From assembly GCF_964019925.1 (NCBI RefSeq), contig NZ_OZ026470.1:806001-870000 (forward strand): a DNA stretch of 64,000 nucleotides, written 5' to 3'. Of this stretch, positions 11,353 through 22,301 are shown piece by piece. The notes below the pieces were generated by a model, which was not told the origin of the DNA, searched no databases, and saw only the letters and a program-made list of their open reading frames with translations. Source of the DNA: Spiroplasma endosymbiont of Cantharis nigra (lineage in GTDB: Bacteria; Bacillota_I; Bacilli_A; Mycoplasmatales; Mycoplasmataceae). Each line of letters starts with the position of its first letter. Position 1 is the first letter of the stretch. A program made the translations under genes and the position numbers.

Positions 11353-11387
11353 AAAATTCAACTAAATTAGGTTAGTTGAATTTTTTT
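11351..11387. terminator. Bidirectional terminator between convergent genes
   Basis: AAAAAATTCAACTAA (11351-11365) pairs with TTAGTTGAATTTTTT (11372-11386), giving U-runs in both directions. It serves the ABC pair on the plus strand and the MuF-like gene on the minus strand, overlapping the latter's stop. Confidence 0.88.
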
Positions 11388-12063
11388 ATCTAAATTTATC
11401 TATATCAGCTATATTAGGATTTTCTCTTTCAATATTCCTTATAAGCTTATTCTTTTTACAATAAATTTCAATCTCCTCTGAAGTAACTTCAATTTTATTT
11501 TTTAAGACATCAGTTGCTTTTACATTATCATATTCATACTTTAAATTTCTAATCCCATTTTCCAATTTATATAATCCTAAAATTTTATTATGCTTCAGTT
11601 TTTGCTCTTCTTTTGTAATATTTTTATCTGGAATTTTTGTTGAACCAGGAAAATAATCAATATCAATATGTTTACAACCTATATGATGATATCCCTTTGA
11701 AATTGCTTCACTCATTGTAATATATTTATTATCATATTGTTCTAAAGATAAAATAGTATTTTCAAAAGGAATACATAACTCACAACTATCTTCTTCTGGT
11801 TGAACATAAACAATTGTTCTTAATCTCAAAGCTTCCTTTTTACCAAATCAATTATAAATCCCAAGCATTGGTCTATTACTTCTATTCTCTTTTGCTTCTG
11901 TTATCTTCTTATCAACTTCAGAATCTATAAACTCTTTTGGATTATTTACTATGTCTTCCTTCTCTTTTACTTTTTTAGTTATTTTGTTTCAAGGAATAAT
12001 AAAATAAAGTAATATAAGAAATAAAACAATAATCAAAATAGCTCATCAAGGAAATTTATCCAT
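11386..12063 (-). CDS. Membrane-anchored protein with a phage MuF-like C-terminal Cys/His domain
   Basis: A 225-residue protein with one N-terminal membrane helix (residues 5-25), a charged linker, then a domain with SCELCIPFENTILSL, a 20-residue gap, and YHHIGCKHIDIDYFPG. The CxxC...HxxxCxH pattern with aromatic and Pro-Gly positions resembles the C-terminal zinc-type motif of phage head-morphogenesis (MuF/minor capsid) proteins. No other phage genes surround it. A basic/acidic helical tail follows. TGA is Trp in four places. I give the resemblance as an inference by eye; the function is unknown. Confidence 0.6.
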
Positions 12064-12322: not shown

Positions 12323-14107
12323 CTATTTTTTAACTTCTTTTGTTTCTTTAATTTCAACTATTTTTTTCAATGCATTTGCTGCATGTTCTACATCTGGACC
12401 AATAACAATTTGTAAACTTTCATTTCCCAATCGCTTGATTCCATAAGTTCCTGCAGATTTTATTAAGGCATCATCAATTTTACTATTATCTTTTAAAATT
12501 AATCTTAATCTAGTTGCACAATTATCAATACTTACAAAATTATCTTTTCCAATGGCTTCAACAATTTTTGAAGCCATATTTTCATATTTATCTCCCTTTT
12601 GTGAAACCTCTTTTGAAGTTGAAGCTTTACTTGAAGTATTTAAATTACCTTTAGCAGATATTGCCTCAACATTTCTACCTGGTGTAGAAAGATTCATTCA
12701 TTTAATTACAAAGTAGAACACAAAGTAATAAGTAGCTCCAGCTGCTGCTGTAAGAACTAAGATTCATAATGGGTTAGATATTATAGTACCTTGATTATTT
12801 GACAATGCTCATGATTGTGGTAATGAAGCTGCATAATCAATAAATCCGGCACTAAATCCAAATCCAATTTGTATTTTCATAGCTGTAGTTATTGCCATAA
12901 ATATTCCTGTAAGTCCTGCATGAATTCCAAGTAAAACAGGTGCAATAAATACAAATGAGAATTCTAATGGTTCTGTAATTCCTGATAAGAATGAAACCCC
13001 AGCAACTCCTCCAAGGAATCCTGCAATTTCTTTTCTATTATTTTTATCAGCTGTCATTATCATTGCAACAGCTGCCATTGGAAGACCACCCATCATTATT
13101 GGGAAAAATCCTGCTTGAAATAATCCTGAGTTACTAATACCTTTTGCAAATGCATTAATATCTCCCATTTCAGTTACTCATTCATTTCCAACTGAAGGAA
13201 TTGAACCAAAACCTGGTTGAACTATATTTCCACTAACTGGCATTTGGAATCAAAAGAATGTATTCATAATTTGATGTAAACCAAATGGTAACAATAGTCT
13301 ATTTAAAATTGAGTAAGCTGTTGTTCCTGGTATTGCCACAGCTGGGTTTTCTGGATTAGCAACTGCTGTACCAAAACTAATTAAACCTAATTGTATTCAA
13401 GGTCAAATAATTGCAAAAGCTAATGCTGTTGGAATTGTAACTACAAGTGCTATCATTGGTACAAATCTACGACCTCCAAAGAATGATAAAGCAGTTGGAA
13501 GTTTTATATCTTTAAATCTATTATATAAAAATGCTGATAAACAACCAGATACTATTCCACCAAGCACTCCAGTACTTAAAACATAAACTCCTCCAATTAC
13601 ATCTCCCTCTTTAATTTGCTGTACATAAAGTAATTTTGAAAAACTATCTCCATCTTTAGTAGTAAATGTCATTAATTTTCCATAAAGCATTTCAGGAAGA
13701 GTTCCCTCGCCAGTTAATGCTGCAATAGATAAATAAAATATTACGGCTACAAGAGCAACCTCACCCCGATGATCTTTGGCTAATCCAAAAGCACATCCAA
13801 TAGCAAATAATAATGCAAGATTATCAAATGGAATTGAACCTGGCTTTTGAATAATCAACGAAATTCAATAACCTATTTGATTAGTTATTTCACCATCAAC
13901 ATTAGTACTGTATGTAATACCTAAAGCTCCAAAACGATTTAAAATAGCTGCAAATGGTAAAACTGCAATTGGAAATTGTAGTACTTTTCCCAATTCTTGA
14001 AGCATAGTTAAAAATTTACTTCATCCACTACTTGAATTATTTGAATCTTTAACTTTTTTAGTCTTTAACTTTTTTTCATTAGTTAAATGTAAACTTTTAT
14101 TATTCAT
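12323..14107 (-). CDS. nagE: PTS EIICB component, N-acetylglucosamine (NagE) type
   Basis: A 594-residue membrane permease of the glucose/GlcNAc superfamily. The N-terminal 45 residues are polar. EIIC follows with HHRGEVAL-type contacts (AKDHRGEVALVAV), FGGRRFVPM, LPFGLHQIMNTFFWFQ and the GITEPLEFSF motif. EIIB is C-terminal with phosphocysteine 530 in DNCATRLRLI. The long EIIC and the GLHQIMNTFFW segment are closer to NagE than PtsG; glucose cannot be excluded. It is the last gene of the minus-strand sugar cluster and sits behind a promoter with a 15-T tract. Confidence 0.82.
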
Positions 14108-14206: not shown

Positions 14207-14470
14207 CTAAATTAATTCCCCTAAACAAATAGCTAAGAAAATTAATGCCATCAAATAACCCACTACTGCTAAAGTAAAAATACCATAATATTGTCAGAAT
14301 CTAAATATTTTAAATTTAGTAGTAATAACTTTAAAAGAATCCTTTTCATCTTTTTTATTACCTTTAAATCTAATAAAAAAGATAGTTGAAAAAATTCCAA
14401 GTAACAATCCTAAAATACCAAAACTAAACAATGTTCAAAATGTTCCTGTACTTAATGAACCTAATAGCAT
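14207..14470 (-). CDS. Small two-helix membrane protein
   Basis: An 87-residue protein with hydrophobic segments at about residues 11-33 and 60-83, separated by a basic cytoplasmic-type loop (RFKGNKKDEKD). I recognise no family. It starts 4 bases after the MupG gene stop and precedes the NagE-type gene. A similar-sized two-helix protein precedes the ptsG-like gene at 59821-60054. Two TGA Trp codons. Possibly an accessory of the PTS permease; that is inference only. Confidence 0.65.
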
Positions 14471-14474
14471 TTTT

Positions 14475-15578
14475 TTAATCCTCTATTCTAAATCTAAAAT
14501 GGCTTCATGGACCAATAAAGTTAAGTAGTCTATACTCACTTTTTTTTATTGTACCAATTCAATTATACTTTTGATGTTTATCTTCAAATTTATCTTTTAA
14601 AATTATATGACACTCTCCCTTATATTTAATGTCATTATTATTTATTATTACTACATCTCCCTTATTATAAATTTTTTTAGTATTTTGTGAAGGAATTGAA
14701 TCATTTTTAAATTCAACTCTTGAGAAAGTTGATCTTATAAAATATTCTGTAATATCTCCTCTTCTAAAATGATTAAATTCTAATATATTTTGCTCTATTT
14801 TACTAATTTTATAAATCGTTTTTAAATTCAAAGTTATTTCATATTTATCAATATTTGCAAGTTCTTCCAACTCAGATTTTGTTGCATATGCATTCCCAAT
14901 TATAACTGTATCAATTTCGTTTGTATAAAATAAAATTTTTGCTTGTTCAGAAATACTTAGATTTCTTTGTTCTTCTAAAGTAGGTAATTCTTTTCAACCT
15001 ACAGCAGAGGTCATATTTCCATGATGGCTTCCTACAAAAGCTGCAGTAGATAAATTATATTTTAAATATCTTTTATTTGCTTCACTAAAATAGTCAAAAG
15101 GCAAACCAGTATATTCTAAGGGATAAAAATTATGGCATCCACTTAATCTATTTTTTATTGGTTTAAAATCTATTACATTATCAATTAAACTATCATTATT
15201 TGACATATTTAACTGTATATCAATTGCTCCCTTGTTATGAGTAATATTTGCAATTTCAAATGGTAAGCTTGGTGAATCTAATCTTAAACAATCAATTCCA
15301 TATTCTTTACATTTTGATATATCATTAACATTAATTCCAATTAGCTCCATTGATTGATACTCAACATCTAATATAGTATAAAATCCAATTTCCTTTGCAT
15401 ATTTTAAAGATTTTAAAACCATTTCGGCTTTTTTCTTATCATTTTGTGATCCTACAAAATGTAAAATACTTGTAAAGACTACTTCATAGTTTAATTTTTT
15501 TGCTAAATCTAAATATTGCTTATCCTTTTCAAAAGTTGATTGCTCTGGATAAATTGATATTCCTAATTTTCTTTTCAT
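14475..15578 (-). CDS. mupG: MupG-type (DUF871) 6-phospho-N-acetylmuramidase family protein
   Basis: A 367-residue protein that begins KRKLGISIYPEQSTFEKD and continues as a TIM-barrel (residues 1-235: FTSILHF, LDVEYQSMELIGIN, CLRLDSP, GCHNFYPLEYTGLPFDYF, AFVGSH), then a C-terminal beta domain ending FIGPWSHFRFRIED. This is the DUF871 family. Its characterised member MupG of Staphylococcus splits MurNAc-6P-GlcNAc inside the cell. It directly follows a cellobiose-family EIIB gene, so it probably acts on the imported phospho-disaccharide. The exact substrate is uncertain, and a mollicute has no peptidoglycan of its own. Confidence 0.85.
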
Positions 15579-15610: not shown

Positions 15611-15636
15611 AAAAATCACTTTTTGAAGTGATTTTT
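15611..15636. terminator. Terminator after the cellobiose-type EIIB gene
   Basis: AAAAATCACTT (15611-15621) and AAGTGATTTTT (15626-15636) form an 11-bp stem with a TTTG loop. On the minus strand a T-run follows. A TATACT just downstream (about 15596) could restart transcription for mupG. Confidence 0.85.
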
Positions 15637-15934
15637 ATTTACAGTTTTTTAAAGCAAATTTTAAAACTTTTTCTCCATTTGCTTTACCATAATCTTCTTT
15701 TTCTATAACAAAAACAGGCATATTAAGATATGATTTCATTTCGTCAAGTTCATAACCAACTTGAGGACCTAATAGAACTATATCTCAGTTTTTTCCATTA
15801 AGTTTAGCTTCATTTATCGAAACAGCTTTGATTTCAACATTTATATCTTCTTCAAATGCATAGTTTTGCATATTTTTAACTAAAATTGATGTGCTCATTC
15901 CTGCATTACAAGCTAATAGTATTTTTTTATTCAT
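15635..15934 (-). CDS. PTS lactose/cellobiose-family EIIB component
   Basis: A 99-residue cytoplasmic phosphocarrier. The phosphocysteine is residue 9 in LLACNAGMSTS, the exact family motif, and the later LLGPQVGYEL is also typical. It passes phosphate from EIIA to the sugar on EIIC. It lies 29 bases after the EIIC gene; the matching EIIA gene is at 21984-22301, beyond an insertion element. One TGA Trp. Family members transport cellobiose, chitobiose or other beta-disaccharides. Confidence 0.93.
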
Positions 15935-15963: not shown

Positions 15964-18162
15964 TTATGAATTTAAATTATTTATTCTATTATTATTTTCT
16001 AATATATTTAATTCGTCTAATTTTGGTTTTTTTGTAAACTTGCTTAATAGTTCACGTTGTTCTATTTTATTTGCCATTAAAATAAAAGGCGCATAACATC
16101 CCATTAATATAACTAGATTTATCCCAGCAACAAAGCCACCCATAATACTTTTTGTTGTTAAGATTCCACCAAGTATTGGTGGTGTTGTTCATGGAACCAT
16201 AACACTTGAATGTGGCATAATTCCTGCTACTGTTGCAAAATAAGCAAATGATCCTGCTAATAGTGGTCCAACAATAAATGGTACAAATAATATTGGATTT
16301 AAGACTAAAGGCAACCCAAATAGCAATGGCTCATTAATACAAAATAAAGCTGGAATTAAAGTTACTTTTGCCATAGATCTATAATCGCCCCGTTTGGAAA
16401 ACATTAATATGACAAGAATTAAACCAATAGTTCCTCCAGTACCTCCCATAAATATGAAGTTATTCATAAATGGATTTGTAAAAACATATTCTGGATTTAA
16501 TCCTTCAGCTAACGATTGTTGATTTTGAGTAAGTCCGTCTAGTTGAATTGGTTCTAATATTGGTGAAAGTACTCCACTAGCGTGAATTCCCATAAATCAC
16601 AATATTTGTCATAAAAGAACTATTGCTATCATTCCACCAAATCCGGAAACTGCATTAACCATAGGTTTTTGAATTGCTACAGTTATTAAACCATTTAAAT
16701 CAATGAATGTAACTTTTTCAGTTCCAATAGAAATCTCTCCTACGCTTTGACCAATTCAAGTAATTGAAAATGCAATAATTCCAAAAAACACTGCTGAGAT
16801 TGTATAAGGAATTAAAATATTAAATGATTTAGAAACTCCATCAGGAACTGATTCAGGCATTCTAATTTTAAATTTTTCATTTTGTGAAAGTCTACCAAAT
16901 AAAACAGTAGAAGTAATACTTATAATCATGGCAGTAAACATTCCTGAAGTTCCAAAAACTCCTATATTTGTTCAAAATGACGGACTCATAATAAGAAATG
17001 CTACAAATGCAACAACAGCCGCAGATCATTGATTAACCTTATAATAAGGTGCTAAATGGTATGCAATTGCCCCTGCTAGTAAAAATCCAAAGAATGCATA
17101 AGTTCCATTCCAAATATAGGAACCAATTGTTTTAAATTTATCTAAAATAGCTAATTCGTCAGCAGTTAAATAAAAGAAGTTAAAAAATCCACCATTGGCT
17201 GCTCCTAAAATTATATTATTAATTAAAATAAAAACAGCACCAACTATTACTAATGGCATTAATGAAAAAAATCCATTTTTTAATGCAACCATAAATTTTC
17301 AATTCGAAAGTTTTCCAGAAGCATTAGTTACTTTATCTACAGTTATTTTTATATTTAAAGGATCTGCTTTACCAGCATTGTATCTAATTAAAAGTTTTTG
17401 ATGTTTTATTCTGAATTTTTCTTCTTTTATTTTATTTTCATAAAAAATTTTATTTTCATTAATTTTTAATGAAAGATCATAAATTGTTTCATCTAATTCA
17501 TTTTGAAAAGGTTTAATTCTTCTGGCTTTTCTTTGTTTTTTTAAGATATCATCAATATCAGCAAGACTTTGATTATCCTTTTTTCATTTTTCCATTAGAT
17601 TTTCAGATTCAATTTTATAGTTTTTTCTATAATTCAATATTTTAGTTGTAACATCTAATTTAATTTCTTTGAGTTGTTCCTTTAATTTTAAGTGCTCCTC
17701 TTTAATTAAAGTCTTTTTATCATTTCATTCTTTTTTAATTTTTATTTTAAGTTCCTTATTTTTGGAATTCATAGAGGTTTTTTGAGACTTTATAAAAGAA
17801 ATTTTACTTTTAGTTTGCTCAATATCCAATTTATTTTTTTCAAGCCTATTTATTTTTTTCTCTTCATATTCTGAATCCAAATTTTGAATGTTCTTTTCAT
17901 AATCTTCATAGAGTTTATTTATATCAGTCTTTTGATATTTTGCAATTGAAAGTGATAAATCAAAACTTGCTTTTAAATCCTTTTGTTTTTCTTTTTTAAT
18001 TTTATTAAAAGTTGAAGATACCAACTTTAACTTTCTTTTCTTTTGATGAAGTTCATTAGATAATTCAAATAATTCTTTTCTATTATTTTTTAACTTTATT
18101 TTGTTTTCTTTAATAATTTTTGTTGCTTCAAAAATTTCAGGATAATTTTCATACTTTTGCAT
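15964..18162 (-). CDS. PTS cellobiose-family EIIC fused to a long N-terminal coiled-coil domain
   Basis: A 732-residue frame, in register throughout with only TGA Trp interruptions. Residues 1 to about 275 are almost entirely K/E/D/N/L helix with heptad-like spacing and no membrane segment. From about residue 282 (SNWKFMVALKNGFFSLMPLVIVG) it is a standard lactose/cellobiose EIIC with about ten membrane helices, ending near residue 700 (KFTKKPKLDELN). A conventional EIIC would start about at the Met of residue 291, but that would lack part of the first helix, and no ribosome site is obvious there. The ATG used lies 2 bases after the lipoprotein gene stop and has a GGGGGT in front. Confidence 0.85.
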
Positions 18163-18164
18163 AA

Positions 18165-19370
18165 TTAAAAGTTACCCCCATCATCTGTTTCTTGGAAACC
18201 ATATTTAAAGAATTTTTGAACTTCTTCACTATTTAAACTTCCTTCTAACCCATTAAAATGAACTCTAGGAACAATTATTATTTTTTCTTCAAGACCAAAA
18301 TCTTTTTCGACTATTGCATCATTAATTTTTCCATCTTCTTTTTTTATACCCAAAGACATTACTTCAATTAAATTATCATCAATTTCTAATGCCTCTTCAT
18401 TGTTTAATTGCTCTGGAGGTTTTCCTTTATAATCTTCACATGCTCTTCAACTATTTAAATAAGCAATTTTTTCTTCTTCTTTCATTGCTATATAATTTAA
18501 TTCACTATTGCTTTTTGAAGTATGTTCGCAACTTCAATTATAAGTTAAGATCCCGCTAGTATCTTTATTTTTTGAATCATATCAATAACCAGTATAATTT
18601 TTTAATGAATCTTCTCCTTTTTGACCAACATTAAGATATTCAATAATACTCTTATCAAATTTAAGTTTTGTTAAAGAGTTTCCACTACTAATTACTTTTT
18701 CCATTACTATAAACTTTAGCATTGGTACAAAAAAACCATTTTCAACGTATTTATTCATTTCTTGAATACTCTCAATATAAGCCTTATTTTGAGATGTTTG
18801 TTGATAATTATTATAAATATCTTTTGTTATTACTTCATAATAGGCTTGTGTAAATTTTAAGTTATTTTTTAGAACTGCAAATCTAGCTGCATTTGATTGA
18901 AATTCAGGCTTTATTATCTCATCTCCAAAAAAATCCAAAAAATTCTTTTCTGATTCATAATTCATTATTTTAGAAGAATTACCATAAATTTCCTTATCTT
19001 GAAGCACATAGTAATAATAATCATTATTGTTATCACTTTCCTCATCAATTACTACCATTGAATCAAAATAGTTTTTGGCTATTGAAAATAGTTGTAATGA
19101 CTCATTAGTTATTTCCTTTAACAGAGCATTATTTCTTTTAATTTCACTATTAATATCCAATGAGAATAAGTTTCTACGTACCTTATTTGATAAATCAATT
19201 TTACTTGTAATATTGAAATATTTGTTCTCAGCAATTGATTGTGCATCTTTTTTTAGAATTGCTTTAAATTCTAACGCTCAAGTTGCATTACATGAAACAA
19301 CTTGAGTAGTTAGTAAAATCGAAGAAGTACTTAATCCTAAAGCACCAATTACAGATATTAGTTTTTTCAT
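18165..19370 (-). CDS. Surface lipoprotein co-transcribed with the EIIC gene
   Basis: The 401-residue protein starts MKKLISVIGALGLSTSS and has a lipobox TTQVVSC with Cys at residue 27, so it should be exported and lipid-anchored. The mature part is acidic, rich in Asn/Lys/Glu, with a YYYYV patch and no family I recognise. It is followed after 2 bases by the EIIC fusion gene, which argues for coupled expression and a role near that transporter, for instance ligand capture or adhesion; this is inferred. Three or more TGA Trp codons lie in its C-terminal half. AGAAAGAG precedes the start. Confidence 0.82.
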
Positions 19371-19531: not shown

Positions 19532-19582
19532 AAATAAGTACTTTAAATTTAAGTGAATATAATTCTCTAAGTATACATAATG
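19532..19582. repeat. Left terminal inverted repeat of the IS
   Basis: About 51 bases matching the reverse complement of 20878-20928 with roughly 80 percent identity by eye. Confidence 0.85.
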
Positions 19583-19622
19583 TTAAAAAAAACATAGAAT
19601 GTATACAAGGAGAATTTTTTAT

Positions 19623-19970
19623 ATGTCAAATGTTACAGGTAATAAATCAAATATTTTAAGTATCAAACAAAAGCAAGAGTTAGTAAATAGACACTATAAT
19701 GAAAATAGAACTTTTAGAGAGCTTTCAATTGAATATGGTGTATCTTATTCAACAGCAAGAAACCTTTGCATAAATTATAAAATATATGGAGCTGAATGTT
19801 TAATTTCAAAAACAGGAAAGCACAACAAGCATTCTAGTGTTAGACCAAATTCTTTAGACCCAAAAGATAAGGAACTAGCAATTCTTAAAAAGAAAATTAA
19901 ATGATTAGAAATGGAAAATGAAGTTATAAAAAAGTTCAATGAAATGATGGAAAATCAAAAGAAAAAATAA
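19623..19970 (+). CDS. IS3-family transposase orfA
   Basis: A 115-residue protein with a helix-turn-helix (LSIKQKQELVNRHY, then FRELSIEYGVSYSTARNL) and a C-terminal leucine-zipper-like helix (WLEMENEVIKKFNEMM), the usual orfA plan for end recognition and multimerisation. An AAGGAGAA ribosome site selects the ATG at 19623. The last codons are AAG AAA AAA TAA. The six-A run at 19962-19967 is a likely -1 slippage site for making the orfA-orfB fusion transposase. Confidence 0.92.
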
Positions 19971-20872
19971 ATTATATTTATAAAATCATAGAAGAATTTA
20001 AATACAAATATCGTATTTCGGATTTATGTAAGCTTTTAAAAATTACTAGATCAAGTTACTATAGGTGAGTTAGCAATGGTAAAAAGGATTATATTATAAA
20101 AATAGACATTAATATTGCAAAAGAAATAAAGTTTCACTTTTTTAAATATAAAGGTATTTATGGTAGTCCAAGAATAACAATATGTTTAAAAAATAAGGGA
20201 ATAAAGATTAGTCAAAATAAAGTAGCAAGAATAATGAGAATATATAAGATGTATTCAGTAATTAGAGTTAAAAAGATGATTAGAAAACCTAAGGAAAAGA
20301 AAAGTATTACTCATGGACCCAATATTGTTAATAGAAAATGAGAAATTTATGAGAAGAATGAATGCTGAGTGACTGACATTACTTATTTACCATTAAATAA
20401 TAAATTTGCTTATCTTAGTATTTTAAAGGATGTTAAGACAGGATTTATAGTTGGTTATAAATTGTCTAAAATAAATGATATAAAAATTTATAGAGATACT
20501 CTTATTAATTCAACAAAATATAGAAATGACATAAGTAAATCGCTTATAATTCACTCTGATAATGGTTCTCAATATACATCATTTTTTGCAAAAAACTATT
20601 CAAAAAAGAATAATATAATTATTTCTTTATCAAGACCTGGAAATTCAATAGATAATGCAATGTGTGAAACATTTTTTTCTTCATTAAAAGAGGAATGAAA
20701 AAAAGAGTTAAAAGTAAACTCTTTTGAAAAATTGGAAAGCTCTATTAGTAAATATATTCACTTCTATAATTATGAAAGAATACGAGTTAAAACTTCTAAC
20801 CCTCCATCTTATGAATACTTTAATAATTGAAACAAAATAAAAGTAATTGCATTAAATGCAATTACTTTATAA
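19961..20872 (+). CDS. IS3-family transposase orfB (DDE integrase domain)
   Basis: The frame is -1 relative to orfA and opens before the A6 run. The HTH_21-type region (EEFKYKYRISDLCKLLKI, cited by its core RISDLCKLL, and GIYGSPRI) precedes the rve core. Catalytic residues are D in WVTDITYLPL, D in IHSDNGSQYTS and E in MCETFFSSLKEE, followed by HFYNYERI. All three are intact. No good start codon or ribosome site serves it alone, so expression by frameshift from orfA is expected. A 14-bp perfect hairpin (20840-20868) lies in the final codons and may stop transcription. Confidence 0.92.
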
Positions 20873-20877
20873 AAAAA

Positions 20878-20928
20878 CATTTTGTATACTTGACAAAGTA
20901 TATTCACTTTAAATTTAAGCACTTATTT
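20878..20928. repeat. Right terminal inverted repeat of the IS
   Basis: Mirror of the left end; GTATACTTG and TATTCACTTTAAATTTAAG are the clearest matching blocks. Confidence 0.85.
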
Positions 20929-20953: not shown

Positions 20954-20990
20954 AAAAAGACAAAACCTATTAAATAAGTCTTGTCTTTTA
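20954..20990 (-). terminator. Terminator after the ROK kinase gene
   Basis: AAAAAGACAA (20954-20963) pairs with TTGTCTTTTA (20981-20990). A T-run follows on the minus strand, just before the IS end. Confidence 0.75.
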
Positions 20991-21004: not shown

Positions 21005-21964
21005 TTATTTTATTGTTATTAAATTATCTATACCATATTTGTAAACTCCTCAAGCTCCAACCATATTTCCTAATTGCGCTGTTCTAATAGTTATTCTTGA
21101 GTAAAAATCTGGTAAAACGTATTTTTTTAATTTTTGTTTAATAATTTTAATTAATGGCTCGCCTAAATTGGAAGGACCTCCACCAATAACAATCATTGAT
21201 AAATCAAAAAAATGAATTAATACTGATATACATTTAGCTAATGGTTCTAAACTATCTTCAAATACCTTTATAACTTCCGGGTCTTTAATTTTAACTAAAT
21301 CTGCTACATCAATAATATGAATATCTCCATTTAACTGATTAAATATTTTACCTAATGGACCCTTAGATTTTGAACCAACCTGTTTTAATTTTTTTTCAAT
21401 ACCTGTCGCTGAAGATACTGGTTCTATACAACCAATTAAACCACAACTACATTGACACTCTGATTGAAAACCACCACCATGTCCTGGTTCACTTGGCAGT
21501 CCAGTGTTATCTCCAAAAACTAACTTTCTATCAAAAATGGCTCCGCCACCAACGCCAGTTCCCAATGTAAACAATGCCATTGAGTCTGGTTTTCCTTTTA
21601 AAGAAATTGCTCATTCCCCATAAGCTGCAGATTTTGCGTCATTTAAGACAAATACATTTTTATTATTAAATAACTTTATTAAATTCTTTTTAGCTGGATA
21701 GTTTTTTCAGCCTAAATTTGTTGAATAAATCACTGTTCCAGTTTTATTATCAACAATTCCACAAACTGCTATTCCAATGAAATCAAGTTCACTCATATTA
21801 ATTTCATTTTCTTTTGCTATTTTAAAAGCTTCTTTTGCAATATTTTCAAGTATTTTATCTTTATTTATAGTATTAAAAATAAAAGTATGACTAATTTTCA
21901 TATTATCAAAAAAAGCACATTTAGCAGTTGTGGCTCCTAAATCTATTGTAAATGCTTTTGGCAT
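21005..21964 (-). CDS. ROK-family sugar kinase
   Basis: A 319-residue protein with the N-terminal phosphate motif DLGATTAKCAFFD, then LNDAKSAAYGEW (catalytic Asp), LGTGVGGGAIF, and the ROK zinc motif CQCSCGLIGCIEP (CxCGxxGCxE). ROK kinases phosphorylate free hexoses such as glucose, GlcNAc or ManNAc. It follows the EIIA gene by 19 bases, so it probably handles the non-phosphorylated sugar left after a phospho-disaccharide is split. GGGAGG favours the ATG at 21964 over one 15 bases upstream. The exact sugar is unknown. Confidence 0.9.
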
Positions 21965-21983
21965 ATTATGCCCTCCCAAAATT

Positions 21984-22301
21984 TTATTTATTTATAATTT
22001 TATACATTTCAATCATTTCTTTTCCAAGATCAATAATTGCTTGAGTAGTTATCATTTGATCTTCAGCATGAATAAATATTAATTTTAAATCAAGCTTTTC
22101 TCCATTTGCTTCTCTTGAGACAATATCAAAATGAAGATTATGAGCTTTTGTCATTTCCAACTCAGCTTCTTGGATTAATTTATTTGCAATATTAAATTCC
22201 TTTACCTTTGCTGAACGAATTGCCTTTATTGCATTCGATTTTGAAGTTCCAATACAAGAAATCATTTCCATTGATATATTTTCTCAATTAATTTCACTCA
22301 T
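21984..22301 (-). CDS. PTS lactose/cellobiose-family EIIA component
   Basis: A 105-residue all-helical phosphocarrier. The phosphohistidine is His78 in FIHAEDQM, which aligns with HAQDHLM of the family; the second His of that motif is Gln here. It takes phosphate from HPr for the EIIB/EIIC encoded 6 kb downstream on the same strand. It lies between the ABC exporter gene (10 bases away) and the ROK kinase gene. AGGAGAG precedes the start. Confidence 0.9.

Follow-up and report, generated by a model that had tools for sequence, protein, structure and literature searches.

A conserved N-terminal extension, predicted to be a helical rod, on a lactose/cellobiose-family PTS permease of a Spiroplasma endosymbiont

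Introduction

What might some 275 additional residues, predicted to be largely helical, be doing at the N terminus of a sugar permease? The question is raised by a gene in a 64,000-nucleotide stretch of DNA (the window) from the Spiroplasma endosymbiont of Cantharis nigra, whose genome is a single contig of 1,237,520 bases in which TGA is decoded as tryptophan. The gene encodes an EIIC of the phosphotransferase system (PTS). PTS permeases transfer phosphate from EIIA via EIIB to the sugar bound in EIIC, and PTS proteins are thought to work in clusters or relays. ChbC-type EIICs are dimers with cytosolic N termini. No rod or coiled coil was described on any PTS EIIC in the papers searched. If rods of this kind hold PTS partners or place transporters, their deletion would provide a simple genetic handle on membrane organization in wall-less cells; if they do nothing, they would reveal the extent to which long helical tails are tolerated in AT-rich genomes.

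Results

A single, conserved reading frame joins the extension to EIIC

Translated with genetic code 4 (table 4), the gene runs on the minus strand from an ATG at 18162 to a stop at 15964 and encodes 732 amino acids, with nine TGA codons read as W. Under table 11, the stretch 15964-18162(-) appears as a broken gene; this reading was rejected and code 4 is right. The features of the gene are as follows.

15964..18162, minus strand: whole gene, 732-aa EIIC with N-terminal helical rod (genetic code 4)
18174..18179, minus strand: ribosome-site-like GGGGGT, 11 nt 5' of the start, with equivalents in all orthologs
17338..18162, minus strand: N-terminal extension, residues 1-275, basic (net charge about +25), matching no known domain
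18133..18162, minus strand: conserved motif MxKYEKYPEI, residues 1-10, the best-conserved stretch of the extension (ortholog alignment)
16054..17319, minus strand: EIIC domain, residues 282-703, lactose/cellobiose/chitobiose family (TIGR00410, ChbC alignment)

The first-pass annotation of this DNA had described an in-frame fusion to an EIIC and suggested a search for the same fusion in relatives. An intact fusion was found in 13 of 20 same-genus genomes, the window's own included. The 12 other copies are 26.6 to 96.7% identical to the window protein over residues 1-272 and 45.7 to 99.8% identical over EIIC, and the 272 rod columns contain a single one-residue indel across all intact copies. 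For the two closest pairs, dN/dS was 0.143 and 0.156 in the rod and 0.029 and 0.066 in EIIC; more distant pairs are near synonymous saturation. Judged from these alignments, the extension is under purifying selection. Its conservation peaks at residues 1-10 (entropy, 0.83 bits), 71-80, 221-240, and 251-270, the shaft being variable, and the rod is about 48% identical at distances where EIIB is 85 to 88% identical. Two more same-genus genomes, G013 and G004, carry broken copies: the G013 copy (L064:6618-8660) shows an internal rod deletion and an interrupted EIIC, and the G004 copy (L013) has several stops. Both copies fit a loss of the use of that sugar in these genomes.

We also considered whether a sequencing error or a misread start might conceal a working protein of ordinary EIIC length, about 440 residues, given that internal ATG codons occur at positions 291 and 302. 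The start at 18162 is preceded by a GGGGGT-, GGAGG-, or AGGT-like sequence in all 13 intact copies, whereas no ribosome-site-like sequence precedes Met291 in any of them, and Met291 is not conserved. Before ATG 302, the ribosome-site match in the window genome is 3 nt at most, and initiation there would cost EIIC residues. The identical frame is open in 13 genomes, and no intact ortholog needs a frameshift. As comparators, we fetched 79 other bacterial EIICs (one with a broken frame) from 84,980 genomes; these are about 415 to 459 aa long, in agreement with the 420 to 460 residues previously given for normal members, and have 11 to 39 residues ahead of the EIIC match. In a Spiroplasma sp. TIUS-1 EIIC, 278 residues lie between the start and the match. 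Taken together, the open frame, the selection, the start signals, and the norm of 11 to 39 residues make both a gene-joining error and a late start near residue 291 unlikely, and we regard this explanation as hardly credible. On sequence grounds, the fusion is a real single gene and is conserved.

The EIIC domain resembles ChbC

The protein matches PF02378 (PTS EIIC) over model positions 2-319 of 319, with 120.3 bits against a gathering score of 30.7, and the model of the lactose/cellobiose EIIC subfamily, TIGR00410, scores 279.9 bits over residues 282-703 (cut-off, 236). The cut-off of the cellobiose EIIC equivalog TIGR00359 was missed (279.9 versus 434.45 bits), and thus the substrate cannot be called cellobiose. 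Members of TIGR00410 usually, but not by definition, have 415 to 460 aa and a short N terminus; this protein is 732 aa long and begins with about 280 residues that are not part of EIIC. The N,N'-diacetylchitobiose EIIC of Bacillus cereus (bcChbC; PDB 3qnq) aligned end to end with residues 278-699 (phmmer, 6.7e-46) and was the best structural match of EIIC (VIA Z 27.7 over 385 aligned residues; rmsd, 9.2). The likeness, at 27 to 29% identity and with the same fold, lies in the EIIC domain: ChbC has no rod, whereas the Spiroplasma protein has about 275 extra N-terminal residues.

The extension is predicted to be helical, with two breaks

Residues 1-272 contain 22% K, 11% E, just 1 G, and 3 P. 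A Pfam search of the extension gave no significant match, and a comparison of the rod profile with PDB sequences returned only chance-level, composition-biased matches. Pfam matches found with single members (for example, ApoLp-III in 1 of 13 members) were set aside as chance.

AlphaFold2 predictions, in which two or three sequences cover the rod, were obtained for the whole protein (from 28 sequences, with a mean pLDDT of 79.9) and for the N-terminal 277 residues together with one relative. The full-length model has helices at residues 8-77, 81-196, 203-212, and 222-262. In the N-terminal model, where pLDDT is 92 to 97 over residues 11-145, helices 8-77 and 82-196 recur and helix 3 is uncertain.

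17932..18141, minus strand: predicted helix 1, residues 8-77 (AlphaFold2)
17920..17931, minus strand: predicted hairpin turn, residues 78-81, within the conserved motif AKYxKxDIN (AlphaFold2, alignment)
17575..17919, minus strand: predicted helix 2, residues 82-196 (AlphaFold2)
17377..17499, minus strand: predicted helix 3, residues 222-262, beyond the KPF loop, at lower confidence (AlphaFold2)

The extension had previously been described as a continuous coiled-coil helix. The models support its helical nature, but both interrupt the helix at about residues 78-81 and 197-221. Residues 2-150 are predicted to be hairpin-like. A COILS-type score of 1.60 for the window sequence, calculated with an unvalidated matrix, did not stand apart from that of composition-matched shuffles (1.53 ± 0.08). 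Alignment-averaged hydrophobic periodicity was significant in no 42-residue segment, and the classical heptad signal of the rod appears weak. Residues 2-150 align to the antiparallel hairpins of p85 iSH2, an Smc arm, and an LXG domain with Z scores of 10.6 to 11.5, which are common for long helices; the overall hairpin layout is shared, but these proteins have no sequence relation to the rod, and the likeness is typical of any long hairpin. A Foldseek search with the rod alone gave no match at E ≤ 0.001, which does not prove a new fold.

In the predicted arrangement, helices 8-77 and 82-150 would pair as an antiparallel hairpin of about 10 nm (at 1.5 Å per residue). Helix 2, itself about 17 nm long, would continue to residue 196, and helix 3, whose packing is of low confidence in the models, would probably fold back along it to give a bar of roughly 17 nm. 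The helix lengths (70 + 41 versus 116 residues) suggest such packing of helices 1 and 3 along helix 2.

The operon points to a probable chitobiose-type substrate

The rod EIIC gene belongs to a cluster with the conserved order ABC-ABC-EIIA-ROK-lipoprotein-EIIC-EIIB-MupG-small protein-EIICB, in which EIIA and EIIB are encoded separately from EIIC.

21984..22301, minus strand: EIIA, lactose/cellobiose type (PF02255), same operon
21005..21979, minus strand: ROK-family sugar kinase, same operon
18165..19370, minus strand: lipoprotein, 2-nt gap upstream of EIIC, conserved in position, matching no family
15635..15934, minus strand: EIIB, lactose/cellobiose type (PF02302), same operon
14475..15578, minus strand: MupG/GH170-family phosphoglycosidase (PMC12791066 for ChbE, PMC6262408 for MupG)
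14207..14470, minus strand: small conserved operon protein, probably membrane-bound (by inspection), matching no family
12323..14107, minus strand: EIICB, closest to GlcNAc-type IIBC, last gene of the conserved cluster

The gene set of a chb operon, comprising EIIA, EIIB, EIIC, and a GH170 phosphoglycosidase, is present together here. In Lacticaseibacillus paracasei, a GH170 enzyme (ChbE) adjoining cellobiose-type EII genes (ChbC/A/B) is required for the use of N,N'-diacetylchitobiose (PMC12791066). The Spiroplasma operon shares the cellobiose-type EIIC, EIIA, and EIIB and the MupG/GH170 phosphoglycosidase with that chb operon, but adds the lipoprotein, the ROK kinase, the GlcNAc-type EIICB, two ABC genes, and the rod; no equivalent of ChbD or ChbR was found among the Spiroplasma operon genes examined. 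The MupG-family GH170 enzymes of Staphylococcus act on MurNAc-6P-GlcNAc (PMC6262408). A search for the MurQ etherase gave no TIGR00274 match in the endosymbiont genome and matches in 2 of 20 same-genus genomes, so that a chitobiose-type phosphate, and not MurNAc-6P-GlcNAc, is the probable substrate of the GH170 enzyme here. NagA is present in the endosymbiont genome. From the gene context, the substrate is probably N,N'-diacetylchitobiose, (GlcNAc)2, which fits better than MurNAc-GlcNAc, and chitobiose, a product of chitin, would be a plausible sugar for an insect symbiont.

The lipoprotein gene lies directly ahead of the rod EIIC gene in nearly all relatives; its product is fast evolving (24 to 80% identity) and is possibly a sugar-binding or hydrolase partner. 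A 225-aa protein encoded at 11386-12063 is conserved at the cluster end and gives a weak match, at 24.0 bits under the cut-off of 26.3, with phage minor capsid protein 2. Between the ROK and lipoprotein genes lies an IS3-type element (19532-20928; open reading frames at 19599-19970 and 19901-20872) with imperfect terminal inverted repeats of 53 nt. It is missing from this site in relatives that include the very close genome G009 (L167), which points to a recent insertion that split the operon. A terminator-like hairpin (20955-20989, minus strand) directly follows the ROK gene, ahead of the element. An RNA study of S. diminutum reported high expression of celA/B (PMC5726471); celB may be an ortholog of the rod EIIC.

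Other EIICs of related genomes carry extensions of similar composition

Matches to the rod profile over the rod itself were found in 19 of 60 genomes, all of the window's family and mostly of the same genus; outside that family only G187 gave a match, and a weak one (5.9e-6). A scan of genome contigs with the rod as the query gave no match. Other lactose/cellobiose-type EIICs of the window's family and order bear basic, G/P-poor extensions of 168 to 337 aa at the N terminus (L019/L036, L031, L032, L040, L041, and L048) or of 110 to 231 aa at the C terminus (L020, L021, L024, L026-L028, L030, and L033), and these are mostly not homologous in sequence. The N-terminally extended proteins (748 and 815 aa in TIUS-1; L036, L040, L041; L048) thus share with the window protein a basic, G/P-poor extension on a lactose/cellobiose-type EIIC, but their rods differ in length and most have no detectable homology to the window's. 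The 815-aa EIIC of TIUS-1 has the hairpin motif AKxxxKDINK in common with the window rod. The window rod is thus one example of a type of extension that has recurred on these permeases, a tendency that may be either selected or a by-product of AT-rich composition. In genus g11, rod-bearing EIICs occur as tandem pairs (L031, L032), of 748 and 815 aa in TIUS-1 and of 712 and 699 aa in G029.

Within the endosymbiont's own genome, most other long N-terminal EIIC extensions look, on inspection, like EIIA/EIIB-type domains. These fusions have about 260 to 300 residues before EIIC, as the rod EIIC does, but their extension is of EIIA/EIIB type and not a rod. Some EIICs in this genome have charged C-terminal tails; at G000:C1:402631-403593, EIIC and EIIB are apparently fused already and a charged tail is present too.

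Discussion

Our leading interpretation, held tentatively and with nearly an even chance of being right, is that the protein is an ordinary PTS EIIC of the lactose/cellobiose/chitobiose type, most likely importing N,N'-diacetylchitobiose, to which a lineage-specific cytosolic rod has been added that clusters the transporter or holds soluble partners. A cytoplasmic rod on a PTS permease, as proposed in the first-pass annotation, agrees with the conserved fusion and its predicted helicity, and the cytosolic placement follows from what is known of ChbC. The catalytic mechanism would not differ from that of other PTS permeases. If the protein dimerizes as ChbC-type EIICs do, two rods per transporter would lie under the membrane. 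The conserved ends (MxKYEKYPEI, the AKYxKxDIN tip, and the KPF loop) may contact a putative partner while the variable shaft acts as a spacer, a pattern expected of a spacer with contact points. The likeliest role would be to cluster transporters or to keep EIIA, EIIB, HPr, or pathway enzymes nearby. Clustering with EIIA/EIIB, as suggested earlier, may occur, but the rod has diverged much more quickly than EIIB, and this speaks, though not decisively, against EIIB as a tightly docked partner. Also weighing against our interpretation, at least one EIIC of the endosymbiont genome (G000:C1:402631-403593) has a charged tail even though EIIB appears to be fused to it already.

A simpler role, in which the rod just oligomerizes or spaces the transporter (as a dimer of dimers or in a membrane microdomain) with no other partner, is a serious but less probable contender. 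A shaft of fixed length and variable sequence would suit it, and a generic spacer or cluster function fits the finding that some EIICs have a rod at the N terminus and others at the C terminus; the specific conservation of terminal and tip motifs suggests defined contacts instead, and the classical heptad signal is weak. The extension could also be close to neutral, an AT-biased tail that the cell tolerates without using it. Its high K, N, and I content is what an AT-rich genome would give, K-rich helical sequence can arise through AT-rich mutation bias, which counts against a selected role, and its dN/dS is two- to fivefold above that of EIIC in the closest pairs. Yet these ratios (0.14 to 0.16) are far below 1, there are almost no indels over 13 orthologs, the motifs are conserved, and in the two broken copies the rod decays along with the transporter and not alone; we consider a neutral tail very doubtful.

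The remaining proposal is that the rod ties the transporter to Spiroplasma's internal cytoskeletal ribbon (MreB paralogs and Fib); an MreB/Fib cytoskeleton has been described in this genus (PMC9663586). Our test of it was the co-occurrence of MreB among genomes. Several MreB-like proteins are encoded in all genomes with a homologous rod (the g1 carriers, G036, G029, and G025), but MreB is found just as well in G005, G007, G011, G012, and G016, genomes of the same genus without the rod EIIC gene. Conversely, the L048 EIIC, with a nonhomologous N-terminal rod of 337 residues, occurs in G043 and G049, in whose assemblies (77 to 88% complete) MreB was not detected, and no known cytoskeletal linker is related in sequence to the window rod. 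MreB co-occurrence gives no positive evidence for the cytoskeletal link raised in the first-pass annotation, and we judge that link improbable, although these observations are not decisive.

Returning to the tentatively favoured role in clustering or partner holding, a broader version would be that Spiroplasma and its relatives have repeatedly added long, basic helical rods to either cytosolic end of PTS permeases, forming a submembrane scaffold that organizes sugar uptake and soluble enzymes in wall-less cells. We think this broader version unlikely.

A separate group of EIICs, at L035, L042, and L043, has a charged linker and a small, uncharacterized C-terminal domain. The motif YGGYKIRI.GK.VA.AL is present in this domain in L035 and L043, and the L042 domain is similar by length.
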